A DNA stretch of 10,792 bases from an uncultured Spirochaetaceae bacterium (lineage in GTDB: Bacteria; Spirochaetota; Spirochaetia; Treponematales; Treponemataceae). The DNA lies in the NCBI GenBank assembly GCA_902773215.1, contig CACYDQ010000417.1, positions 1 through 10,792 on the forward strand. Reading direction: 5' to 3'. The position numbers and the translations under genes were made by a program. Every line of letters starts with the position of its first letter. Position 1 is the first letter of the stretch. The notes under the pieces are model-generated. The model ran no database searches. It was not told where the DNA came from and was given only the letters and a program-made list of their open reading frames with translations. Below are positions 2 to 10,792 of this stretch, one piece after another.

Positions 2-307
2 CCCGCCGACTGGTTCGACGCGGAGATGGGCGTGTGGCTGAACAAGGGCGAGCCGATGACGGTGGAGCTGCTCTTTGACAAGGAGGTGGGGACCTTCGCG
101 CTGAACCGGAGCTGGCACACCGGGCAGGAGGTACGGCAGAACGAAGACGGCAGCGTATATGTCAAGTTCACCACGACGCAGCGGCAGGAAGTCCTGCGGC
201 AGGTGCTGGGGCAAGGCCACACGGTCAAAGTGCTCGCACCGCCCGAGCTCGTTGCGGAAGTCAAAGCGGAGCTGGAGAAGATGCGGGGACTGTACGGGGA
301 GAAATAG
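2..307 (+). CDS. WYL-family transcriptional regulator, C-terminal end (partial, 5' end outside window)
   Basis: The reading frame is open from base 2 to the TAG at 305-307, so only about 101 C-terminal residues are present. The ATG at 26 lies inside the domain and is probably not the start. The pattern matches the C-terminal extension (WCX) that follows a WYL domain: a strand of the type VELLF, then a Trp-containing segment (NRSWHTGQEV), a DGSVYVKF strand, a segment ending in LGQGHTVKVLAPPEL, and a last helix ending LEKMRGLYGEK. Proteins of this family usually have an N-terminal helix-turn-helix and a WYL ligand-sensing domain, neither visible here. Known relatives (BrxR, CapW) repress neighbouring phage-defence operons. 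Control of the GTPase operon starting 155 bases downstream is possible but inferred from position alone. It could equally be an unrelated host gene at the island edge. Confidence 0.75.
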   Translation, partial: PADWFDAEMGVWLNKGEPMTVELLFDKEVGTFALNRSWHTGQEVRQNEDGSVYVKFTTTQRQEVLRQVLGQGHTVKVLAPPELVAEVKAELEKMRGLYGEK

Positions 308-462: not shown

Positions 463-2205
463 ATGATACAGAAGCAAAAAGAATATGCGGGCTACATCTC
501 GGATGCAATCGGCGCGCTGAAGTCCCAGTTCGTGGAGCTGCCGACGGAAAAGCTCGAGGCCGTGAGGCAGAGCGTGGAGGGGCAGGAGCTGCTTGTCCCG
601 GTGATAGGTGATTTCAGCGCGGGCAAAAGTTCCCTGCTCAACAGCTTCCTGGGCGGCGACAAAATCCTTCCCACGGATGTACGGCCGGAGACCTCCCTTG
701 CGGCGGAACTGCGCTTCGACACGAACGAGCGCATAGAGGCGGTCGCGGACGGGAACGTCGTCAGGACATACGGGCTGCAGGACTTTGAGGAGATAAAGGC
801 CCATGCCGCGGAATACAGCTACATCAAGGTATACCTGAACAACGAGCGCGTCCGCTCCGTTGAGCCCCTTGTCCTTGTGGACATGCCCGGGTTCGAGTCG
901 CCGGTGGAGCAGCACAACAAGGCGATAAACGTCTACCTCTCGCGCGGGGCGCACTTCGTCGTCCTTGTGAACGCGCAGGACGGGACGATGCGCCGGTCCG
1001 CGTTCAGGAGGCTGGGCGACATACTGGAGTGCGACAGGGATTTCTCGCTCGTCATAAGCAAGTCCAACCTTGTCTCCCCGGACAACCTGCAGGCGGTGAG
1101 CGAAAAGATTGCCGGGCAGATAGACAATGAGCTGGACGTGCAGAAGACCCCGGTTGCGGTGGGCAAGGACGGTGCCGAGGCGTTCGCAAGGATTATAGAG
1201 TCCCTGAACCCGGACAGCCTGTTCTCCCGGATAACCAGGCCGATGGTCAAGAACGCCCTGTACGAGGCCAAATCGTCCGTCAGCATCAAGCTGTCCGCGC
1301 TGGAACGCAGCGGCGAGCAGAACACGGAGGCCATTGACAAGCTCAAGGAAGGGCTCAAGAGAATCCAAGAGCGGGAGGCCAGGCTCCTGAGGGAAACCCA
1401 GTCCCCCGAGCAGATAGGGGCACGGGTGCAGAGCATCATCAGCAAGCTGGGACAGAACCTGTCCGCCTCGGTTGACACGCTGACGGGCATCGCCGCCAAG
1501 CAGGGGCCAGACGCAGTGTCGCGGGAAGTCTCGGATATCATACAGTCCACGCTGCTGCCGCTGGTAAAAAGTTCCGTCACGGACATGGCGGTATCCATCG
1601 ACAGCAAGTTGAGCGAGAACCTGAAGGATGTCAGCACCGCGCTCTCAGGCTACTCGCTGGACGGGGACTTCGTCGGAAATGCGTCCGAGGGCATAAAGAC
1701 CTTCCTGCAGGATTCCATGACCTCGCTGAACGGTGTGGTTGCGCAGCGGAAGTCCATGAAGAACAGCTCGCAGGTATTCAACGCAATAACCGGCGTACTC
1801 GCCATAGCGACCGACATCATCAATCCCGTCGCGGAGCTTGCCATCGTGTTCCTGCCCCAGATTGTCGGCATCTTCACGGAGGCGGCACGGAAACGCCAGC
1901 AGGAGGAGGCGGAGCGGCAGCGGATAGAAAACATCCGCTCGGCAATCCTGACCCAGGTCATCCCCAGCCTGAAGCGCGACATGCAGCCCAAGGTGAAGAA
2001 AATCCTGGAGGACGAGGCGCAGAGCCTTGTCACCCAGATAACGAAGGAATACGAGGCAATCCTTGACTCCAAGCAGAAGGAGATAGCCGCAGCGGAGGCG
2101 GAACGGCAGGCGCATATCGACGAGCTGAACGCGAAGGTCGGGGCCATCCGCGCCGCAAAGGAAGTGGTCGAGGCCGCATACAATGCGGTATGCCAGAATA
2201 ACTGA
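463..2205 (+). CDS. dynamin-like GTPase 1 (Leo-type bacterial dynamin, 580 aa)
   Basis: This is a large GTPase of the dynamin superfamily. The P-loop (G1) is GDFSAGKSS at residues 49-57, the likely switch-I Thr is T77 in RPETS, and G3 is DMPG at 140-143. The expected G4 position reads SKSN (199-202) instead of the usual (T/N/S)KxD, so guanine recognition may be altered or activity weak. After the GTPase domain come long helical segments (about 270-430). A hydrophobic stretch at about 438-471 (ITGVLAIATDII, then AELAIVFLPQIVGIF) suits the membrane-contacting tip of bacterial dynamins, and a charged coiled coil runs at 473-575. The ATG is preceded by AGGAG at 451-455 with 7-base spacing. This is the first gene of a three-GTPase run. 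Family assignment is firm; LeoA-like identity and a phage-defence role are inference. No clear promoter is visible between 411 and 462. Confidence 0.88.
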   Translation: MIQKQKEYAGYISDAIGALKSQFVELPTEKLEAVRQSVEGQELLVPVIGDFSAGKSSLLNSFLGGDKILPTDVRPETSLAAELRFDTNERIEAVADGNVVRTYGLQDFEEIKAHAAEYSYIKVYLNNERVRSVEPLVLVDMPGFESPVEQHNKAINVYLSRGAHFVVLVNAQDGTMRRSAFRRLGDILECDRDFSLVISKSNLVSPDNLQAVSEKIAGQIDNELDVQKTPVAVGKDGAEAFARIIESLNPDSLFSRITRPMVKNALYEAKSSVSIKLSALERSGEQNTEAIDKLKEGLKRIQEREARLLRETQSPEQIGARVQSIISKLGQNLSASVDTLTGIAAKQGPDAVSREVSDIIQSTLLPLVKSSVTDMAVSIDSKLSENLKDVSTALSGYSLDGDFVGNASEGIKTFLQDSMTSLNGVVAQRKSMKNSSQVFNAITGVLAIATDIINPVAELAIVFLPQIVGIFTEAARKRQQEEAERQRIENIRSAILTQVIPSLKRDMQPKVKKILEDEAQSLVTQITKEYEAILDSKQKEIAAAEAERQAHIDELNAKVGAIRAAKEVVEAAYNAVCQNN

Positions 2206-2208
2206 GAC

Positions 2209-2215
2209 GGAGAAG
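2209..2215 (+). promoter_or_regulatory. ribosome binding site favouring a GTG start for GTPase 2
   Basis: GGAGAAG lies six bases before the GTG at 2222. The more upstream ATG at 2183, which would overlap gene 1 by 23 bases, has only GAGG at 2170-2173. The ATGs at 2231 and 2240 are too far from this site. Confidence 0.5.
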
Positions 2216-2221
2216 ACGAAC

Positions 2222-4561
2222 GTGGCGAACATGACGAACATGACAATCGAAGAAATTTGCAAAGTCCGCGAGGACATAAACAAGGTCGTTGACGCGCACC
2301 CCGACGAGCTCAAGGAGACGCTTGCGACGGCCCTGCAGGAGTGCGGGGACCTGGGGGACGCGGACGAAATCCGCAGGCAGTACGACGCGCTGGTCGTCCC
2401 CGGCCGGCAGCTGCACATCGGAATCGTGGGCCGCGTGAAGGCGGGCAAGTCCTCCATGCTGAACTCCCTCTTCTTCGGGGGCAAGAACGTCCTGCCCAAG
2501 GCCGCCACGCCGATGACCGCCGCCCTCACCAAACTGCGCTACAGCGAGAAGCCCGTGGTCAAGATTAACTTCATCGACGCGAACGACAAGGCAAAAATCG
2601 AACAGAAGGCCGCGGATTACAAACGCCTGTTCAACAGCAAGGTGGAGGGCATGCTCAAAGACAAGCGGGAACGCGCAGAACTCAAGAAGCAGCCCTTCAA
2701 CGAGGCGGAGCAGCGCAAGAAATGCGAGAAGAACGCGCGGAGCGACCTGTCCGAGAACAACGTCGTTCTTGCCGGTGCGGCGGAACAGGCGGAGATGCTC
2801 CAGAAGGCCTCCTCCTCCGTGCTGCAGATGCTGGGAAAGTCCGTGGAGAAGAAGCTTGACCGCATAGAGGCCGTGGCGAAGGAACTTGCAGGATACGTCG
2901 GTGCGGACGGGGCGTATACGCCCATCACGAGGGACGTGGAGCTGGGCTTCCCCTTTGACGCGCTCAAGGACATCACCGTGGTGGACACGCCCGGATTCGA
3001 CGACCCGGTCCCCTCCCGCGACGCGGCCGCACGGGATTCCCTCAAGAAGTGCGACGCTATCTTCATCCTCAGCCCGGCGGGCCAGTTCTGCAATGAGGAG
3101 GACCGCACGAACATAGAGAAGATAGAGAGCGGCGAGGGCATACAGAACATCTCCGTGGTTGCCAGCAAGATAGACGCGGAGCTGGGTAACGAGTCCAAGG
3201 ACGAGGCAAATGGCGACATCCAGAAGGAGCTCACGCTCATCGTACGGAATATCAGCGAGACCCTCCGCAAGCTCACCGATGGCTTCCCCAGGGACGGGAT
3301 GCTGCACAAGAAGCTGACCGAGGATCTGGGCAGGGGGCTTTTGTACACGTCGGGCATCTGCCAGTCCATGTACGAGACCTGGGAGAACAAGTCCTCGTGG
3401 GACAGTGACGCGACGGATACCTGGGAGCGGCTTAAGGAGACATACCCCAGCTATTTCTCTGGCGAAGACGACAGTGCGCGGGAGACGCTCAAGGCAATCG
3501 GCAACATAGGAGACATCCGGGAGCGCATAGCCGAAGTCCGCGGCAAGAAGGATGAAATCCTGAACAGCAGGGAAGAGAAATTCCTTTCCGCAAAGGGCGA
3601 CATGGTGAAGAAGGTCGCCGTTGTCCTGAAAGACAGCTTCGCTGAGACGATGCGGGCTTTCCAGGCCGCCGACCTTGATACCCTGAAGAAAGAGAAGGAA
3701 AAGCAGGAGGAGAACTTCGCGGCCCTCAAGGGGGACTTTGAGGAAGCCCTGGGGGATGCGTTCGAAGACTACATCGCCGATTGCCGCGAAACCTGCAACC
3801 AAATCGTCAAGGACTTCTTTGAGGGGACGCGGGAAACAGCGAACGACGCGAAAGGAACGGAGACAGAGGAGCGGAGCCGCCAGCACAAGGTCAGTGACGG
3901 GTATGACTATATAAAGAAGAAGGGTTTTTTGAATGGGGTCAAGAGATTTTTCGGCAGTGACGACGGCTGGGAAAAACGCGAGCGCTTCCGGACGGAGACG
4001 GAATACTATGACGTCACCGTAAAGACCCTGAACGCCTCCGAGGTCAGGGAAACCATCACGGACTTCGCGGAGAACATGAAGGATGTCCTGCAGGCCCAGG
4101 TGGACAAGAGGCGCAGGCTGCTGCGCGGGAAGCTCAAGTCCATCATCTTGGACATTTGGGCCAGATACCAGATGTCGGAATTCATCGGTGAAAAGGCCCG
4201 GGGAAACCAGGCCGGCAACATCGTCAGCGCGATACCCGACTGCGACATCTCAATCAGCTGGTCCCTGCCGTCACGGCTCCGCAGCGGCGGCCGCCTCAGG
4301 GACAGTGATGCGGACGAATACATGGACGCGGCGCGGGAGGAGATGCGGAACATAAAGAGCGAGTACAACGACAGCATCAAGAGCTTCCTCTCATCTGTAA
4401 AAAGCAAGCTGGACGCGGCGAAGACTGCCGACATGATTCTTGCCAAGATGCGGGGCAACTTGGACAAGATGATGAAGTCCTTGGACGAGCGGGAGGCGAC
4501 GCTTGACAACTACAAGCACATACAGGCGGAAATCGAAGAGTTCGTCAGCCGGCTCGCATAG
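2222..4561 (+). CDS. dynamin-like GTPase 2 (779 aa, with long insert in GTPase domain)
   Basis: This is a second dynamin-superfamily GTPase, numbered here from the GTG at 2222; an ATG at 2183 would add 13 residues. G1 is GRVKAGKS at 70-77, the switch-I Thr is near 99 (ATPMTA), G3 is DTPG at 255-258 followed by FDDP, and G4 is SKID at 315-318, so all key motifs are intact. About 155 residues separate the switch-I Thr and G3, against about 63 and 73 in the two neighbouring GTPases. The extra part is Lys/Glu-rich and probably helical. The C-terminal half is helical, with a small hydrophobic/basic segment KGFLNGVKRFFG near 567-578 that could be a membrane-touching loop, and a coiled-coil end. No zinc ribbon is present. 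It starts 16 bases after gene 1 and ends 17 bases before gene 3, so co-translation and hetero-oligomer formation are likely, as in other tandem bacterial dynamins. Confidence 0.88.
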   Translation: MANMTNMTIEEICKVREDINKVVDAHPDELKETLATALQECGDLGDADEIRRQYDALVVPGRQLHIGIVGRVKAGKSSMLNSLFFGGKNVLPKAATPMTAALTKLRYSEKPVVKINFIDANDKAKIEQKAADYKRLFNSKVEGMLKDKRERAELKKQPFNEAEQRKKCEKNARSDLSENNVVLAGAAEQAEMLQKASSSVLQMLGKSVEKKLDRIEAVAKELAGYVGADGAYTPITRDVELGFPFDALKDITVVDTPGFDDPVPSRDAAARDSLKKCDAIFILSPAGQFCNEEDRTNIEKIESGEGIQNISVVASKIDAELGNESKDEANGDIQKELTLIVRNISETLRKLTDGFPRDGMLHKKLTEDLGRGLLYTSGICQSMYETWENKSSWDSDATDTWERLKETYPSYFSGEDDSARETLKAIGNIGDIRERIAEVRGKKDEILNSREEKFLSAKGDMVKKVAVVLKDSFAETMRAFQAADLDTLKKEKEKQEENFAALKGDFEEALGDAFEDYIADCRETCNQIVKDFFEGTRETANDAKGTETEERSRQHKVSDGYDYIKKKGFLNGVKRFFGSDDGWEKRERFRTETEYYDVTVKTLNASEVRETITDFAENMKDVLQAQVDKRRRLLRGKLKSIILDIWARYQMSEFIGEKARGNQAGNIVSAIPDCDISISWSLPSRLRSGGRLRDSDADEYMDAAREEMRNIKSEYNDSIKSFLSSVKSKLDAAKTADMILAKMRGNLDKMMKSLDEREATLDNYKHIQAEIEEFVSRLA

Positions 4562-4578
4562 GGAGGGGGAGGATCGTT

Positions 4579-6099
4579 ATGGAAGAAACAACTGCCGGTG
4601 GAATTGACTTCGAGAAAGAGTACAAGGCCCTGTGCGACAAGTATAAGCTTGTGGCAGCAGTCCTGAACGCCCGGCCGGTAAAGAACCGCTGCACCGAGCA
4701 GCTGGAAAAGTTCCACGCATTGATGGCGAAGGACTTTCAGGAGTTCACCAGGGGCGAGGGCACGATGACCGAGGATGCCATCGCGCTCTCACGGCTTCAG
4801 GAGGTGGAGAAGGAGCTGCGGGAGTCCGTCAGCTTCCCCATGCTCTCCACCAAGAACATCGTGGCGGTCGCGGGTGGCTTCAGCAGCGGCAAGTCCAAGT
4901 TCATCAACACGATAATACGCGGAGGAGACGTAAAGCTTTCCACCGGGGTCAACCCGGTGACAGCCATACCGACATTCGTACAGCAGGGTGAAAGTGCCGG
5001 GATCACCGCATACGCCCCCGACGGCAGGCAGGGCGCAATACCGGTAGGCCTGTTCAACAAGATAGACCACAAGTTCATTGAGGAGCTGGGCTTCAACCTG
5101 AAGAGCATCATGCCCTATACGACCGTCACTGCCCCCTTCGCCGAGAAGCTTGCGGAACTGGGCAACCTGTGCCTCATAGACACGCCCGGATACGACCCCG
5201 CAAAAAACGAGGAGACGGAGGAAGACCGCTCCACGGCCTTTGACGTGCTGGGAAGTGCGACGGCAGTCCTCTGGTTCATCGACATAGACAACGGAACCCT
5301 GCACAAAAAGGACGTCGCTTTTTTGGACAAGATGAACGGTCTGACGGAGGATAACCGGCAGACTCCGCAGAAAAAGCTTTTCGTCGTCATCAGCAAGGCC
5401 GACCGCAAGGAGTCACAGGTACAGAATGTCATAGACCGCGTCAAGGAAGACCTTGAGGAGAACGACATTCCCTACGAGGGCATATCCGCGTTCAGCGCGA
5501 ACAAGAACAAGGAATACCTGGACGAGGACGATGGCAGGTCCCTGTTCGACTGGCTCAGGGAGCAGAACAAGAACCTCGTCGATACGGCCATGAAAATCCG
5601 CCTTCTCAAGGAAAAGGTGGAGGGCGTATTTCAGATGTACCATGACTCCATCGCCCGTGATACCAAGAAAATGCAGGACGACAAGAAGATTGTCGAAGCC
5701 ATGCGCCTGTCTGTGGAAAAACGCCTGGATGCGAAAGATCAGGAGCTCCTCCGCCTGCAGCAGAACAGCACCACGAACTATTACAGGAACAGGGGAAGCT
5801 ACAAGAACAGGCAGTCGGACTGGTCAACGCAGGATGATGATGACGATGACAATGACTTTGACGAGGCAAGCTTCTACAGCCTTGTCAATGACCGGAGCTC
5901 CGTCAATGAGAAGAACGACAAGGAGGCATACCGCATTTGCCGAGACATGCTCAAGTGCATTGACGGCATTTTCAGCGAGATGAACCCGGAGCTGCTGAAG
6001 AACGTGCAGTACAAGAAGTTCTGCGGCAAGTGCGGCACCAAGCTGGAGGGCAAGTACAAGTTCTGCCCCAAGTGCGGTGCGCCCACGACGATAGGGTAA
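4579..6099 (+). CDS. dynamin-like GTPase 3 with C-terminal zinc ribbon (506 aa)
   Basis: G1 is GGFSSGKS at 99-106, the switch-I Thr is T128 (GVNPVTAI), G3 is DTPG at 201-204, and G4 is SKAD at 272-275. The GTPase domain is preceded by about 95 helical residues and followed by a helical stalk (about 330-395). A low-complexity linker rich in Asn, Arg and Tyr follows (395-415), then an acidic run of six Asp (419-424) and a final helical stretch. The C-terminus is a zinc ribbon with C482, C485, C496 and C499 (CGKCG...CPKCG). That ribbon links this GTPase to the next four genes, which begin with the same kind of ribbon. The start has a strong purine-rich site (GGGAGGGGGAGG, about 4561-4572). No transmembrane segment is obvious. 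Dynamin-family membership is well supported. The ribbon acting as a docking point for the downstream proteins is inference. Confidence 0.87.
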   Translation: MEETTAGGIDFEKEYKALCDKYKLVAAVLNARPVKNRCTEQLEKFHALMAKDFQEFTRGEGTMTEDAIALSRLQEVEKELRESVSFPMLSTKNIVAVAGGFSSGKSKFINTIIRGGDVKLSTGVNPVTAIPTFVQQGESAGITAYAPDGRQGAIPVGLFNKIDHKFIEELGFNLKSIMPYTTVTAPFAEKLAELGNLCLIDTPGYDPAKNEETEEDRSTAFDVLGSATAVLWFIDIDNGTLHKKDVAFLDKMNGLTEDNRQTPQKKLFVVISKADRKESQVQNVIDRVKEDLEENDIPYEGISAFSANKNKEYLDEDDGRSLFDWLREQNKNLVDTAMKIRLLKEKVEGVFQMYHDSIARDTKKMQDDKKIVEAMRLSVEKRLDAKDQELLRLQQNSTTNYYRNRGSYKNRQSDWSTQDDDDDDNDFDEASFYSLVNDRSSVNEKNDKEAYRICRDMLKCIDGIFSEMNPELLKNVQYKKFCGKCGTKLEGKYKFCPKCGAPTTIG

Positions 6100-6114
6100 A
6101 CAATAGGGTAGTAT

Positions 6115-6121
6115 AGAGGAG
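6115..6121 (+). promoter_or_regulatory. ribosome binding site deciding the start at 6128
   Basis: AGAGGAG is six bases before the ATG at 6128 but only three before the adjacent ATG at 6125. Starting at 6128 also gives the same MKCPKCGE beginning as the paralogue at 9572. Confidence 0.55.
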
Positions 6122-6127
6122 AATATG

Positions 6128-7108
6128 ATGAAGTGTCCCAAGTGTGGTGAAGAATTGGAAGACGGTGCGGCGTTCTGCACGAACTGCGGAGAGAAGATGG
6201 TGTCCGCCCCTGTCTGCCCGAACTGCGGTGCAGAGCTGCGCATGACTGCCAAGTTTTGTGACCAATGCGGTACGAATTTGATTACAGAGCATTCTGAAAC
6301 CAAGAAACAAACTACGCCCAAGAAGCAGCAGAGTACTGACATAGATGCGTTCAGGACAATCAAAACAGGTAAACGGTTTATTTTAAAAGGATTGAAGGAT
6401 AAATCTCTGACACAGATTGTGATTCCAAATTCAGTTTGGAAAATTGATGAATCCGCTTTCCAAGGTTGCGACAGACTTGAGAATGTGATGATTCCCGATT
6501 CCGTCACGGAAATAGGAGACAGTGCATTTTATGGGTGCAGTAGCCTTGAAAGCGTGGTAATTCCCGATTCAGTTCGGGATATAGGCAGATATGCTTTCGC
6601 AAATTGTTGCAATCTTGAGAGCGTGGTGATTCCCGGTTTTGTCATGGAAATAAGAGACCATGTATTTCAAGATTGCAGTAACCTTAAGAGCGTAGCAATT
6701 CCTAATTCAGTTTGGAAAATTGACGAATCCGCTTTTTTAGATTGCAGCAGTCTTAAGAACGTAGTAATTCCCAATTCAGTTAGGGAAATATGTGATAGTG
6801 CGTTTTATGGGTGCAGTAGCCTTGAGAGCTTGGTGATTCCTGATTCTGTCATGAAAATAGGAAACAGTGCATTTAGGGGATGCAGTAGCCTTGAAAGCGT
6901 GCTGATTCCCGATTCAGTTTGGAATATAGGCTGGTATGCATTCGCTGATTGTAGCAGTCTTGAGAGTGTGATGATTCCTGATTCCGTCACGGAAATAGGA
7001 GACCATGCATTTTATGGGTGCAGTAGTCTTGAGAGCGTGGTGATTCCTTCTTCTGTACGCAAATTCCGTCAAGCTTTTGACGGGGATACCCGTATCATCA
7101 GGGAATGA
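6128..7108 (+). CDS. double zinc-ribbon protein with BspA-type leucine-rich repeats (326 aa)
   Basis: Two zinc ribbons open the protein (C3/C6/C17/C20 and C30/C33/C44/C47). A polar linker (about 50-75) follows, then a short LKGLKDKS lead-in. From about residue 94 there are nine perfect 23-residue repeats of the BspA/LRR_5 type, consensus LESVVIPDSVxxIGxxAFxGCSS, and a tenth unit that ends in a cap TRIIRE. Such repeats form a curved solenoid that binds proteins or surfaces. There is no signal peptide, so unlike many BspA-type adhesins this one should be cytoplasmic, which fits an intracellular adaptor or sensor. It lies 28 bases after GTPase 3 and probably shares its transcript, then is closed by the terminator at 7120-7155. 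Base composition is visibly more AT-rich than in the GTPase genes. A paralogue with seven repeats lies at 9572-10516. Domain calls are firm; the binding target is unknown. Confidence 0.85.
   Translation: MKCPKCGEELEDGAAFCTNCGEKMVSAPVCPNCGAELRMTAKFCDQCGTNLITEHSETKKQTTPKKQQSTDIDAFRTIKTGKRFILKGLKDKSLTQIVIPNSVWKIDESAFQGCDRLENVMIPDSVTEIGDSAFYGCSSLESVVIPDSVRDIGRYAFANCCNLESVVIPGFVMEIRDHVFQDCSNLKSVAIPNSVWKIDESAFLDCSSLKNVVIPNSVREICDSAFYGCSSLESLVIPDSVMKIGNSAFRGCSSLESVLIPDSVWNIGWYAFADCSSLESVMIPDSVTEIGDHAFYGCSSLESVVIPSSVRKFRQAFDGDTRIIRE
6407..7105 (+). repeat. tandem 69-base coding repeats (BspA-type LRR), nine full units plus cap
   Basis: Units start at 6407, 6476 and so on to 6959, each exactly 69 bases with no insertion or deletion. 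A shortened terminal unit starts at 7028. Some units are nearly identical in DNA, for example 6476-6544 and 6959-7027, which differ at about five positions. This suggests expansion or conversion among units. The most variable positions in the protein repeat follow the IPDSV core. Confidence 0.85.
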
Positions 7109-7119
7109 GGCTGTCCCCT

Positions 7120-7155
7120 GCAGAATATGGTCAGGAGTGTTCTGCCGTTTTTTTT
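7120..7155 (+). terminator. Rho-independent terminator after the first zinc-ribbon/LRR gene
   Basis: GCAGAATAT at 7120-7128 pairs with GTGTTCTGC at 7137-7145 (six Watson-Crick pairs, then U-G, A-U, U-G) around an 8-base loop. CG and eight T (7148-7155) follow. It starts 12 bases after the stop codon at 7108 and should end, or partly attenuate, the transcript from the GTPase genes. Confidence 0.6.
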
Positions 7156-7163
7156 GCTATACT
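7155..7163 (+). promoter_or_regulatory. extended -10 promoter candidate for the Sel1/ankyrin gene
   Basis: TGCTATACT fits the extended -10 pattern TGnTATAAT with one mismatch. No good -35 box is found 16-18 bases upstream, which extended -10 promoters can tolerate. It overlaps the end of the terminator T-run and lies 56 bases before the start codon at 7220. Confidence 0.5.
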
Positions 7164-7206
7164 GACAAATGCATGCGCGATAGTTGCAAACGAACTTAAC
7201 TGCGAT

Positions 7207-7212
7207 GAGGAG
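7207..7212 (+). promoter_or_regulatory. ribosome binding site deciding the start at 7220
   Basis: GAGGAG stands seven bases before the ATG at 7220. The frame stays open further upstream (TTG at 7184, ATG at 7205), but those starts have no such site and would add residues absent from the zinc-ribbon paralogues. Confidence 0.6.
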
Positions 7213-7219
7213 AAGTGTT

Positions 7220-8992
7220 ATGACATGTTCCAAGTGTGGTGAAAAACTGGAAGACGGTGCGGCGTTCTGCACGAACTGCGGGGAGAAACTTGCGTCCGCA
7301 CCTGTCTGCCCGTATTGCGGTGCGGTGCTGCGAGAAGATGATAGCTTCTGTGGCAAATGCGGAAAGCCTGTTACCAAGGAAGCGCAACCAGCTGACTCAG
7401 ACATTGATACAAAGCCTGATATTCCTGCCTGTAAGCAGGAAAATGGCAACGACATGACTGCTTCCACGAATCCGAAACAGGTAAAGGATTATTCCTTTCA
7501 GGAACTACTCGACTTGGAAAAAAAAACGCACGGATCTGATATCCAGTTCGAACTTGGGGAATGCTATCTCTACGGGAACGGGACTACAAAAAGTGAAGGT
7601 GAAGCATTCCGATGGTATTGCGAATCTGCAAAACAAGGAAATCCAGAGGGCCAATACAAGCGGGGATTATGCTTCCAGTCCGGTTGGGGGACGGAGGCGA
7701 ACGATGCGAGTGCGTTTGAGTCTTTTAAGAAAGCTGCATTGCAAGCAAACGTTTCTGCGGCACAAGAACTTGGTTCCTGCTACTTGAACGCTAGAGGAAC
7801 CGAATGCGACCTGAAAGAGGCTTGCAAATGGCTTACCTATGCCGCATCGCACGGTTCTAAAGCGGCAGAGCAATTGTTGGAAAATACAAAGGAACGTTTC
7901 TCCGAAGCATTCTTCAATGCCACAAGACATAACAACATTGAGGTTGTGAAAGGTTTTGTCGAGGCCGGTATAGATGTGAATCTGGCTGACGCTCAAGATT
8001 TGACACCCCTCATGGTTTCTGCGAAAGAAGGATATGGTGATGCTGTCAAGCTCCTCATCAACAGCGGGGCGAAAGTGAACTTTGATACCAGGACTGGCTG
8101 GACAGCTCTGATGCTCGCAGTCAAAAACGGGCACAGCGATATTGTCAAACAGCTGCTCGATGCCAATGCGAAAGCAAACCTTACTGACAAGGATGGTCGG
8201 ACAGCTCTGATGCTCGCAGTCAAAAGCGACCATAGCGACATTGTCAAACAGCTGCTCGATGCCGGTGCGAACGTAAACCTTGCTGACAAGGATGGTCGGA
8301 CGGTCCTGATGCTTGCAACCGAAAGCGGACACAGCGACATTGTCAAACAGCTGATTGATTCCGGTGTAAACGTAAACTTTGCTGACAAGGATGGTCGGAC
8401 TGCTCTGATGCTCGCAGTCGAAAGCGGACACAGCGACATTGTCAAACAACTGCTCGATGTCGGCGCGAAAACAAACCTTGCTGATATACATGGAAAGACA
8501 GCCCTGATGCTTGCAGTGCAGAAGGATTATGACGTTATTGCAAAATTGCTTCTTGATGCCGGTGCGGATGTAAATGCTGTTGATGAGAACAAAACAACCG
8601 CATTGATGCTTGCGATAATGGTTCCTGATCCATTTTCTTTGTTGGGTTCTATTATAGGAATTTTTTCCTCTAAAATATCTGTAGAAAACACAAAAAAGAA
8701 ACAGCTGCACAAAGAGAAGCAACGCGCCATTATCAAAATGCTCATCAATGCGGCGGCTGATGTGAACAAAGCTGACAAGGAAGGTTACACGGCTTTGATG
8801 ATGGCAACAAAATCTCGTCTTAGTGAGATTGTTACAATTCTAATAGCGGCAGGTGCTGATGTAAAATTACGCAGCAACAACGGTGATACGGCGTTGAGTT
8901 TGGCAAGGGCCGCACAAAACGACGAGATTTCTAAACTACTTGTTGATGCAGGGGCTAGCCTAAAATTTTCTGATATATTAAGGAGCAAATAA
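7220..8992 (+). CDS. double zinc-ribbon protein with Sel1-like and ankyrin repeats (590 aa)
   Basis: Three parts are visible. Two zinc ribbons come first (C3/C6/C17/C20 and C30/C33/C44/C47), then a linker to about residue 90. Next are about three Sel1-like repeats (about 105-220), with the typical G-x-C/A-Y-x-x-G-x-G-T and A-x-x-W/F-x-x-x-A patterns. Finally ten ankyrin repeats run from about 227 to the end, consensus GxTALMLAVxxGHSDIVKQLLDAGAxVNLADKD. Repeat 8 carries a 31-residue insertion (from about residue 467) with a hydrophobic part FSLLGSIIGIF and a Lys-rich part. Both repeat families are protein-binding scaffolds, and no enzymatic motif is seen. There is no signal peptide. It has its own promoter candidate (7155-7163), and the next gene starts one base after its stop codon, so those two are translationally coupled. 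A scaffold or sensor role is inference; partners are unknown. Confidence 0.85.
   Translation: MTCSKCGEKLEDGAAFCTNCGEKLASAPVCPYCGAVLREDDSFCGKCGKPVTKEAQPADSDIDTKPDIPACKQENGNDMTASTNPKQVKDYSFQELLDLEKKTHGSDIQFELGECYLYGNGTTKSEGEAFRWYCESAKQGNPEGQYKRGLCFQSGWGTEANDASAFESFKKAALQANVSAAQELGSCYLNARGTECDLKEACKWLTYAASHGSKAAEQLLENTKERFSEAFFNATRHNNIEVVKGFVEAGIDVNLADAQDLTPLMVSAKEGYGDAVKLLINSGAKVNFDTRTGWTALMLAVKNGHSDIVKQLLDANAKANLTDKDGRTALMLAVKSDHSDIVKQLLDAGANVNLADKDGRTVLMLATESGHSDIVKQLIDSGVNVNFADKDGRTALMLAVESGHSDIVKQLLDVGAKTNLADIHGKTALMLAVQKDYDVIAKLLLDAGADVNAVDENKTTALMLAIMVPDPFSLLGSIIGIFSSKISVENTKKKQLHKEKQRAIIKMLINAAADVNKADKEGYTALMMATKSRLSEIVTILIAAGADVKLRSNNGDTALSLARAAQNDEISKLLVDAGASLKFSDILRSK
7235..7312 (+). 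repeat. 78-base exact direct repeat, copy A (zinc-ribbon cassette)
   Basis: Identical base for base to 9587-9664. It encodes most of the first zinc ribbon and the linker to the second. A further exact stretch follows after a short divergent part (around 7347-7375). The same cassette in the gene at 6128 shares 34 exact bases (6156-6189). Confidence 0.9.
8096..8491 (+). repeat. four near-identical 99-base ankyrin coding units
   Basis: Units start at 8096, 8195, 8294 and 8393, each exactly 99 bases (33 residues). They share long identical runs, such as the stretch coding for HSDIVKQL in all four. The other ankyrin units of the same gene are more diverged, so this block was probably amplified recently. 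Confidence 0.8.
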
Positions 8993-8993
8993 T

Positions 8994-9542
8994 ATGATTA
9001 CATGTCCCAACTGTGGTGAAGAACTGGACGATGGTACGATACACTGTACGAACTGTGGAGAACTCGTAGGCGAAGAACCCAAACCCGAAGTGCGGGAGAT
9101 AACGAAAACAATAACGAAAACGGTGGAAAAAAAGGTTGTGGACAAAGATGTCGTCCAGAAGTCCTATATGGACGGCATGGTCGAAGCCTTCAAGTTTATT
9201 TCCGACCTGACCGGAGGCATAGACATCCTTGATGACTCATTCTATCCGCTTGTTTCCGCCGCCGAGGATGAAAATGTTGATGTTGTGACTGCATTGCTGG
9301 AGGCGGGGGCGGACGTTGACCAGGCCGATGATGACGGAGATACCGCACTGATGAGGGCTTCTGCAAATGGATACAACAAGCTTGTGAAAATCCTCATCGA
9401 TGCAGGTGCCGACGTTGACATGACGAACGACAGCGACGAGTCCGCACTGTCTATTGCCCGTGACAACGACAACCGCTACATCGTCGGCTTACTGCGAAAG
9501 GCCGGTGCGTATGAGGACGATGACGATGATGATGATGATTAG
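8994..9542 (+). CDS. single zinc-ribbon protein with ankyrin repeats and poly-Asp tail (182 aa)
   Basis: The N-terminus is one zinc ribbon (C4, C7, C18, C21). A charged segment rich in Thr, Lys and Val follows (about 35-57) and may form a helix or coiled coil. Residues about 82-172 hold roughly three ankyrin repeats (VVTALLEAGADVDQADDDGDTALM, then a similar unit ending DAGADVDMT). The protein ends in eight Asp. AAGGAG at 8980-8985 is eight bases before the ATG, and that ATG is one base after the preceding stop, so translation is coupled to the Sel1/ankyrin gene. It looks like a short version of that neighbour without Sel1 repeats. An acidic tail can mimic nucleic acid or bind basic proteins, but no specific role can be read from it. 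Confidence 0.82.
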   Translation: MITCPNCGEELDDGTIHCTNCGELVGEEPKPEVREITKTITKTVEKKVVDKDVVQKSYMDGMVEAFKFISDLTGGIDILDDSFYPLVSAAEDENVDVVTALLEAGADVDQADDDGDTALMRASANGYNKLVKILIDAGADVDMTNDSDESALSIARDNDNRYIVGLLRKAGAYEDDDDDDDD

Positions 9543-9557
9543 TAAAATCCTTTGTGC

Positions 9558-9564
9558 AGGGGGA
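9558..9564 (+). promoter_or_regulatory. ribosome binding site deciding the start at 9572
   Basis: AGGGGGA is seven bases before the ATG at 9572. The in-frame GTG at 9554 lies upstream of this site, and the ATG at 9566 is only one base after it, so both are unlikely starts. Confidence 0.6.
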
Positions 9565-9571
9565 AATGATT

Positions 9572-10516
9572 ATGAAGTGTCCAAAATGTGGTGAAAAACT
9601 GGAAGACGGTGCGGCGTTCTGCACGAACTGCGGGGAGAAACTTGCGTCCGCACCTGTCTGCCCGCATTGCGGTGCAGAGCTGCGAGAAGGGGACGGCTTC
9701 TGTGGCAAATGCGGAAAGCCTGTTGCCAAGGAAGAGGAACCTTCCGTCTGTCCGAACTGCGGAGCGGAGCTTGAGCCTGATGAAAAATTCTGCAGCCAAT
9801 GCGATACGGCGGTGACCACGGAACATGCTGCGATGGATCAGGTGGAAAGCCATCAAACTCAGAATACTCAGCAAATGGAAACTGACATAAGTGCGTTCGA
9901 GTATGAAGAAGATGAGGAAGGGCTTGTTCTGACAGGATTGAAAGACAAATCCTTGACACAGATTGTGATTCCCGATTCTGTTACGGAAATAGGATGGGGA
10001 GCTTTCAGAGATTGCTATAGTCTTGAGAGTGTGGTGATACCTACTTCTGTCACGGCAATAAGATACGATGCTTTCAAGAATTGCAACAACCTTAGAAGTG
10101 TGGTGATTCCAGATTCAGTCACAGAAATAGGAAGCCATGCTTTCTCTGGGTGCAGTAGCCTTGAGAGCGTGGTGATACCTGATTCAGTCAGTTATATAAA
10201 TGAGCGCGCTTTCCGTGGATGCCGAAGTCTAAAGAGCGTAGTGATTCCCAATTCGATTCACCGTATAAGTAATTCAGCTTTCAATGGATGCAGTAGCCTT
10301 GAGAGCGTAGTGATTCCCGATTCTGTCTGGCACATAGAAAACAGTGCTTTCAGAGATTGTAGTAGTCTCAAGAATGTGGAGATTCCTCCATCCGTCACAG
10401 AAATAGAAGCTGAGGCTTTCTATGGATGTGACAGTCTTGAAAGTGTAGTAATTCCAGTTTCCGTAGGGAAAGCACGCCACGCTTTTCATAAGCATACTCG
10501 TATTATCAGGGAATAA
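9572..10516 (+). CDS. triple zinc-ribbon protein with BspA-type leucine-rich repeats (314 aa)
   Basis: Three zinc ribbons open the protein (C3/C6/C17/C20, C30/C33/C44/C47, C60/C63/C74/C77), one more than in its paralogue at 6128. A Gln/Glu-rich linker follows. From residue 128 there are seven perfect 23-residue BspA-type repeats and a terminal unit with the same cap, TRIIRE. The lead-in TGLKDKSLTQIVIP is also shared with the paralogue, so the two are full-length duplicates that differ in repeat number (seven against nine) and ribbon number. The first ribbon is nearly identical in DNA to that of the Sel1/ankyrin gene rather than to its LRR paralogue, a sign of cassette exchange. There is no signal peptide, so it is probably cytoplasmic. 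It begins 29 bases after the ankyrin gene and is likely in the same transcript. A binding or sensing role is inferred from the repeat type only. Confidence 0.85.
   Translation: MKCPKCGEKLEDGAAFCTNCGEKLASAPVCPHCGAELREGDGFCGKCGKPVAKEEEPSVCPNCGAELEPDEKFCSQCDTAVTTEHAAMDQVESHQTQNTQQMETDISAFEYEEDEEGLVLTGLKDKSLTQIVIPDSVTEIGWGAFRDCYSLESVVIPTSVTAIRYDAFKNCNNLRSVVIPDSVTEIGSHAFSGCSSLESVVIPDSVSYINERAFRGCRSLKSVVIPNSIHRISNSAFNGCSSLESVVIPDSVWHIENSAFRDCSSLKNVEIPPSVTEIEAEAFYGCDSLESVVIPVSVGKARHAFHKHTRIIRE
9587..9664 (+). repeat. 78-base exact direct repeat, copy B (zinc-ribbon cassette)
   Basis: Identical to 7235-7312. It sits at the same position within the first zinc ribbon of a gene whose remaining domains are different. 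Confidence 0.9.
9953..10513 (+). repeat. tandem 69-base coding repeats (BspA-type LRR), seven full units plus cap
   Basis: Units start at 9953, 10022, 10091, 10160, 10229, 10298 and 10367, with the cap unit from 10436. All are exactly 69 bases. The array is homologous to 6407-7105 but two units shorter. Confidence 0.85.
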
Positions 10517-10567: not shown

Positions 10568-10792
10568 ATGACTTGTCGCTATTGCGGATATGAGCTTAGA
10601 ACCCAGGGGCACGAGCTACGGAGCAAATTTGGTCCCCGGTGCAACGGCAGCCCTTCGGGAAAGCACGCCGGGGTTTCGGACGGAAGCTGCTGCGTGTATT
10701 GCGGGCGGCCTGCCAAGCCGATTAACGGAAGGCTCCGCACGAGCCTGGGGCCGGACTGCCCCAATTCCCCCACAAGGGCGCACAGCCTGCAG
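10568..10792 (+). CDS. protein with tandem CCCH zinc-binding-like repeats (partial, 3' end outside window)
   Basis: Seventy-five codons are open to the window end. AAGAGGTG just upstream (about 10554-10561) gives a good ribosome site for the ATG at 10568. Two repeats stand exactly 39 residues apart: C3/C6/C25/H33 and C42/C45/C64/H72. Both have CxYCG, GPxC and a SP pair three residues after the third Cys. The spacing CxxC-x18-C-x7-H suggests one zinc site per repeat, unlike the compact CxxCG ribbons of the preceding genes. I do not recognise the family. It follows the LRR gene by 51 bases and may belong to the same unit, although its base composition is more GC-rich. The end of the protein and any further domain cannot be seen. 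Confidence 0.7.
   Translation, partial: MTCRYCGYELRTQGHELRSKFGPRCNGSPSGKHAGVSDGSCCVYCGRPAKPINGRLRTSLGPDCPNSPTRAHSLQ

Follow-up and report, generated by a model that had tools for sequence, protein, structure and literature searches.

Bacterial dynamins have mostly been described as pairs (PMC6104087; papers are cited here for the parts drawn on, and statements about what they mention refer to those parts). The locus considered here, on a 10,792-nucleotide contig of an uncultured Spirochaetaceae bacterium, a gut Treponema (CACYDQ010000417.1; this whole stretch is called the window), instead carries three dynamin-like GTPases, DynA, DynB and DynC, followed by proteins in which a zinc ribbon (ZnR) leads into leucine-rich (LRR), Sel1 or ankyrin repeats. 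We think it probable that these genes encode a membrane machine of modular build, in which three dynamins work with accessory proteins docked through a tag, and we class the locus among bacterial dynamin operons as a new variant. Searches of open-access literature (without bioRxiv), mostly aimed at dynamins, turned up no account of such a trio partnered by zinc-ribbon proteins.

Several described systems share parts of this design. LeoABC and Eleos, the latter described as a dynamin-like defence system (PMC11811056), also have tandem dynamin-like GTPases. However, LeoABC is a dynamin pair whose member LeoBC is split in two, LeoB and LeoC being parts of one dynamin (PMC4159319), whereas the window holds three whole GTPases. 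The best match of the PADLOC LeoA/LeoBC models covers the C-terminal part of DynA (9.5e-15); DynB reaches 1.5e-5 and DynC gives none. Ten proteins of four other trios range from no match to partial matches of up to 1.7e-18, one control protein matches LeoA at 7e-24, and LeoA (4aur) ranks only 27th against the DynA model. Judging by these weak, partial matches and the different gene structure rather than by PADLOC's own cut-offs, we reject membership of LeoABC/Eleos; the kinship to a LeoABC ‘trio’ in the first-pass annotation is not supported. That the genes aid vesicle release or secretion, as proposed for LeoABC, strikes us as very improbable. Deletions of leo genes do roughly halve the vesicle cargo of enterotoxigenic Escherichia coli (PMC4159319), but the window trio is not LeoABC by sequence or gene structure, and Pfam recognises no secretion gene among the nine window proteins.

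Cj-DLP1 and Cj-DLP2 of Campylobacter jejuni are likewise adjacent dynamins, whose chains DynA and DynB match by sequence; they form a hetero-oligomer, and their operon holds an HcpA-like gene (PMC6104087). This system differs in having two dynamins, with no third ribbon-bearing GTPase or zinc-ribbon proteins mentioned. Three dynamin-like proteins have also been reported from one island of Helicobacter pylori (PMC8935386), a set that we liken to DynA-B-C by description only; zinc-ribbon partners are not mentioned there. The DO-GTPase conflict systems of Kaur et al. 2020, with N-terminal zinc ribbons on 60% of the GTPases and one subtype in spirochaetes, similarly surround a GTPase switch with ribbons and variable modules (PMC7159879). 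They use another GTPase family and no dynamin trio, and Pfam finds no match to their GAP1 component in the nine window proteins, though such a gene may lie past the contig end at 10792. DynC falls short of the DO-GTPase family, its PF19993 match being 1.6e-4 and 21.8 bits against a cut-off of 27. Finally, the Bacillus subtilis pspA-ydjGHI operon resembles the locus in having more than one zinc-ribbon protein in a single membrane-stress operon, with zinc ribbons described in YdjG and its band-7 partner (PMC11237479). There, PspA and an SPFH protein stand in place of dynamins, and dynamin, Sel1 and ankyrin are absent from that account.

Three whole dynamins and their ribbon-bearing neighbours

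The principal genes, with the E-values of their Pfam matches, are as follows.

463..2205, forward strand: DynA, dynamin-like GTPase, 580 aa (Dynamin_N 3.5e-17)
2231..4561, forward strand: DynB, dynamin-like GTPase, about 776 aa, alternative start 2183 (Dynamin_N 3.7e-19)
4579..6099, forward strand: DynC, short dynamin-like GTPase, 506 aa (Dynamin_N 7.3e-12, Zn_Ribbon_1 3.8e-6)
6125..7108, forward strand: ZnR gene (PF13240 9.8e-18, PF13306 2.2e-74)
7220..8992, forward strand: ZnR gene (PF13240 1.1e-14, Sel1 1.5e-16, Ank_2 2.9e-74)
8994..9542, forward strand: ZnR-Ank gene (PF13248 3.7e-8, Ank_2 4.7e-26)
9566..10516, forward strand: ZnR gene (PF13240 1.1e-23, PF13306 1.4e-74)

These matches bear out the first-pass description of three dynamin-like GTPases followed by zinc-ribbon/repeat proteins. 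All three GTPases carry a dynamin-type G domain: Dynamin_N lies above its cut-off in each, and further support comes from the predicted fold for DynA and DynC and from sequence for DynB. DynA has the motifs GDFSAGKSS (G1), VDMPG (G3) and SKSN (G4), and hydropathy marks a paddle-like hydrophobic stretch at about aa 445-463. Its AF2 model (mean pLDDT 75, low in the tip region) shows long helices and this stretch, residues 418-479 being of low confidence, and finds BDLP (2j69) as its top match (E=7.2e-15, TM 0.57). DynB (G1 GRVKAGKSS, G3 VDTPG) is longer than DynA and without the hydrophobic stretch; its sequence matches the BDLP chain at 1.4e-9 and chain A of 5owv at 6.6e-6. DynC is composed of a G domain, a helical bundle, an acidic linker and a C-terminal zinc ribbon (about 6019-6084), the four cysteines of which are unchanged across 17 aligned sequences. 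No strongly hydrophobic stretch is seen in DynC by hydropathy, and its AF2 model, with a mean pLDDT of 79.5, aligns with BDLP, Fzo1 and truncated mitofusins at modest TM-scores (about 0.3-0.5). For the trio we would predict the ability to hydrolyse GTP and to remodel membranes.

The G4 motif varies among the three proteins. In this motif an Asp reads guanine. Across 121 sequences per GTPase (the window plus 120 listed homologues), Asn replaces the usual Asp in 114/121 DynA proteins, the usual Lys is lost in 96/121 DynB proteins (although kept in the window DynB), and the Asp is retained in 111/121 DynC proteins. The three GTPases may thus differ in nucleotide use, which would suggest a division of labour.

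A ribbon on DynC goes with zinc-ribbon genes downstream

Our reading draws on the coupling of the DynC ribbon with ZnR genes downstream. Loci entered the census with a best DynC profile score above 80 bits, lower-scoring loci being left out. Dropped before counting were duplicates (L047, L065, L143, L144, L160 and L163) and loci with less than 400 nt downstream (L043, L056, L061, L064, L085 and L162). An open reading frame (ORF) counted as a ZnR gene if it started with ATG within 2.5 kb downstream, had at least 50 residues and showed CxxC-x(6-16)-CxxC among the first 75 of them. This uniform rule was devised after sight of a first census, in which the ZnR neighbours of L041 and L044 had gone unrecorded (because of the profile threshold and of ORF overlap, respectively), and was then used for both groups.

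Among the 79 dynC loci, a ZnR gene lies downstream in 12/12 with a ribbon on DynC and in 0/67 of the others (Fisher p 2e-14, from a hand-entered neighbour table; the uniform rule returned the same counts), the 67 including near-identical rows and distant dynamin operons. Within the DynC group to which every ribbon locus belongs (first tree, 27 rows, 24 usable) the contrast is 12/12 versus 0/12 (p 7e-7, from the same hand-entered table). A DynC tree of 31 sequences needs four ribbon state changes, of which strongly supported branches force two, and a single change is found in 0/200 bootstrap trees. The forced changes fell from four to two, on this smaller tree, because L162 was dropped; its ribbon, first scored as absent, is cut short less than 50 nt from the end of the contig.

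The claim that zinc-ribbon proteins go with this kind of trio is therefore upheld. The wider search across genomes suggested in the first-pass annotation gave a divided answer, with ZnR genes recurring beside every ribbon-bearing DynC and 67 of the 79 loci without such a neighbour. Chance adjacency had been expected to leave trios widespread without ZnR genes and ZnR genes equally frequent elsewhere. The former is seen in those 67 loci; the latter is not clearly seen: ribbons are common in the window's genus and also cluster there without dynamins, but ZnR genes beside trios track one feature, the ribbon on DynC.

Ribbon loci occur in the window, in three more genomes of its genus and in another genus of its family, with further records labelled Spirochaetaceae, Paludibacteraceae, Ruminobacter, Succinivibrio, Lachnospiraceae and an unclassified yak-rumen bacterium. 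DynC is nearly identical in L044 and L054, metagenome-assembled genomes labelled Ruminobacter and Lachnospiraceae, which indicates recent transfer or misbinning. The Paludibacteraceae locus (L042:5071-14998) has two ZnR genes between dynA and dynB. It encodes a 700-aa protein in which a pattern search sees 19 CxxC..CxxC units, one protein that joins ZnR and Sel1 and ends in an acyl-carrier domain, and one with L7/L12 C-terminal domains.

One genome serves as a natural control. G883 (one contig, 99% complete) carries two trios, and a ZnR gene follows the ribbon kind only. In its ribbon trio, a two-ribbon gene starts at the DynC stop codon. In the second trio, DynC has an N-terminal hydrophobic anchor and no ribbon, and no gene satisfies the ZnR rule; an LRAT-type neighbour, whose Zn_ribbon_8 match falls below threshold, was not counted. 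Three of the four PF13240 matches in G883 fall in the ribbon locus, one being DynC's own. The corresponding counts inside the locus are 10/11 in G239, 9/15 in the window's genome, 4/7 in G241, 3/6 in G152, 2/5 in G240, 3/9 in G242 and 1/1 in G1261, with G176 (3/16), G188 (5/30), G244 (1/14) and G238 (1/17) at the low end.

Repeats can also be fused in cis to DynC homologues. Among 120 listed, 34 have a C-terminal ZnR, 12 have ankyrins by pattern and 0 have both; MORN, TPR and HhH fusions are also seen. Within the window, unrelated repeat domains are preceded by a near-identical tag DNA cassette, present in two copies.

7218..7389, forward strand: tag DNA cassette copy (identity drops to background after ~180 nt)
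9570..9741, forward strand: tag DNA cassette copy (identity drops to background after ~180 nt)

The cassette has been duplicated. The gene at 8994..9542 is 48%, 51% and 34% identical to ZnR-Ank genes of L029, L030 and L028, respectively. HcpA, to which one gene of the Cj-DLP1/2 operon is likened, is a Sel1-repeat protein.

From the sequences, we infer a mechanism in which DynA (BDLP-like, with the hydrophobic stretch), DynB (long, without it) and DynC (short) would form a hetero-oligomer. The shared zinc ribbon would be a docking tag between DynC and the neighbouring repeat proteins, whose interchangeable LRR, Sel1 and ankyrin modules would sense or recruit a target, after which the GTPases would remodel or permeabilise a membrane. 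Most likely, the machine would be used, under control of a WYL regulator, when the cell is invaded or its envelope damaged, and within this range anti-phage defence is somewhat favoured.

Distribution and genomic context of the trio

Relatives of DynC were sought with a profile from alignment A1, which found them where a genome-contig scan with the single DynC sequence found none. In the window's genus, 5/200 genomes have a relative (1e-10), four of them with a ribbon trio. At 1e-20 the counts are 9/392 genomes in the phylum and 4/393 in the order of a Paludibacteraceae genome, and at 1e-30 they are 3/299, 5/56 and 1/25 in three further groups. All counts include the genome on which each search centred, and they are lower bounds because 4-7 candidates per genome were scored in the larger groups. 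In named genomes 81 loci were found, and the best 80 of them come from many phyla. The trio is therefore widespread but rare and patchy.

Fifteen plasmid records also have a DynC match (10 from Escherichia, 2 from Pseudomonas and 1 each from Calditerrivibrio, Moraxella and Photobacterium), and three dynamin-family genes are present on each of the four inspected. The third dynamin gene of the inspected E. coli plasmid has a nearly identical copy in 5/5426 E. coli genomes, all on plasmids. In L060, L073, L112, L150 and L159, a fourth gene (~820-850 aa) comes after the trio, perhaps an alternative partner, with CFI-box-CTERM in the E. coli plasmids and no Pfam match in L060 and L150. A different recurrent order, DynA-DynC, gene(s) of ~300-480 aa, then DynB (~715 aa), is found in L078, L080, L082, L088, L091, L095 and similar Clostridia loci, often with ~1040 and ~230 aa genes after DynB.

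Two further features of the window are these.

2..307, forward strand: WYL-type regulator truncated by the contig start, leaving its C-terminal part with the WCX domain (PF25583 E=1.8e-15; PADLOC WYL model 7.5e-13)
7120..7155, forward strand: a site of a kind found 5 times in the window against a mean of 11.5 in shuffles, and so not enriched

A promoter scan was uninformative (6 sites versus 5.7 expected), and Rfam and tRNA scans of the window gave no match. Small CxYCG..C finger proteins adjoin trios in the window (10568-10792), in L146 (near 5625) and at L028:3480-3731, in tandem in the first two; the window copy runs off the contig end.

WYL/WCX genes lie upstream of the dynamins in 8/8 other loci tested by Pfam (chosen by eye), among which L033 and L062 are more distant operons, and PADLOC finds a WYL gene upstream in L046. 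Defence neighbours were scanned in 19 loci from a list of 22. Named defence systems adjoin 4/19 (L142, L149, L066 and L051), a count read from hand-picked genes with an unmatched control. These comprise CBASS-type phospholipase and cyclase pieces beside the G883 ribbon trio, PsyrTA beside a Vibrio locus, a GajB-like helicase fragment beside the pPAG5 trio and, in the Curvibacter locus (L051), three type I restriction-modification matches assigned from gene size and order. The scanned neighbours matched 159 PADLOC families, and 66 control ORFs (random from 103) matched 20. These neighbours are no more than suggestive of a defence role, and we do not claim enrichment of defence genes.

A serious rival, if a rather unlikely one, is that the trio maintains a stressed envelope, sealing or reshaping the membrane with the zinc-ribbon proteins as scaffold, as in B. 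subtilis pspA-ydjGHI. YdjI, YdjG and YdjH are required to bring PspA to the membrane (PMC8581546, where zinc is not mentioned), zinc ribbons are described in YdjG and its band-7 partner (PMC11237479), and Cj-DLP1/2, whose operon has an HcpA-like gene, have been speculated to repair membranes (PMC6104087). Yet the patchy rarity of the trio (in the window's genus, for example, 5/200 genomes), its plasmid copies and the few defence neighbours suit accessory genes better than housekeeping repair. Neither set of arguments is decisive.

Weighing the docking-tag reading

Several observations count against a dedicated machine with docked partners. The 12 ribbon loci are related rather than independent, the L041 neighbour's ribbon was found by pattern and not by Pfam, and the ribbons of DynC and its neighbours are not significantly closer in sequence when they share a locus (p=0.08, 10 loci). 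DynA of the G883 ribbon trio reads as pieces, and PF13240 sees a single ribbon in the locus in 3/12 genomes (G238, G244 and G1261). As for defence, WYL is confirmed among ribbon loci in three only (the window, L048 and L142, which are those tested), and the PsyrTA-adjoining Vibrio locus has DynB and DynC but no detected DynA. The defence-neighbour genes were chosen by hand (65 of 124 listed, plus one), and the unmatched control ORFs themselves matched PDC-S01, DrmD, ZorD, WYL, LeoA and LeoBC. Searches for phage or viral-contig matches returned none and lend such an origin no support. Sensing or recruitment by the repeat proteins, as first proposed, is the best inference.

The ribbon is also common beyond the trio. 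PF13240 is present in 192/196 genomes of the window's genus, and twelve regions were picked from the genus list for closely spaced matches. At least two ZnR genes occur in 11/12 of them and a dynamin in none, which again weighs on the same side; some carry Sel1, OmpA, beta-helix or peptidase C25 domains. In four loci of this genus (L196-L199), where profiles find clusters of 3-5 ZnR genes and no dynamins lie among them, ribbons are fused to beta-helix, OmpA or peptidase C25 domains and to Sel1 with a TPR-S match; these clusters may represent another system assembled by the tag. The tag may therefore serve assembly more widely in these bacteria, a possibility that would fit docking while weakening the claim of specificity for dynamins.

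Taken further, such breadth could mean that the ribbon is a general multi-protein assembly tag and that the ZnR genes are a mobile cassette that landed beside the trio with no functional bond. We consider this improbable, as it leaves without explanation the restriction of downstream ZnR genes to those trios whose DynC itself bears a ribbon, and the recurrence of the arrangement in genomes named Bacteroidota, Pseudomonadota and Bacillota. In the nine other loci checked, ZnR-gene GC content stays within about 0.07 of that of the trio.

The first-pass interpretation is accordingly retained in part: the association between ZnR proteins and this kind of trio stands, with sensing or recruitment as the likeliest role, whereas kinship with LeoABC is not supported and defence stays suggestive. 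Tentatively, and as something possible rather than probable, we propose that the zinc ribbon is a portable docking tag by which one dynamin machine takes changing pattern-recognition proteins (LRR, ankyrin or Sel1), coupling recognition to membrane remodelling in anti-phage defence.

We know of no trigger for bacterial dynamins. If the ZnR repeat proteins are exchangeable receptors for the third dynamin, they would offer a testable answer to where and when these GTPases act. If true, the ribbon tag would also let further components be predicted from sequence alone and, as other clusters of genes in the genus carry it too, could lead to a broader class of bacterial assemblies.
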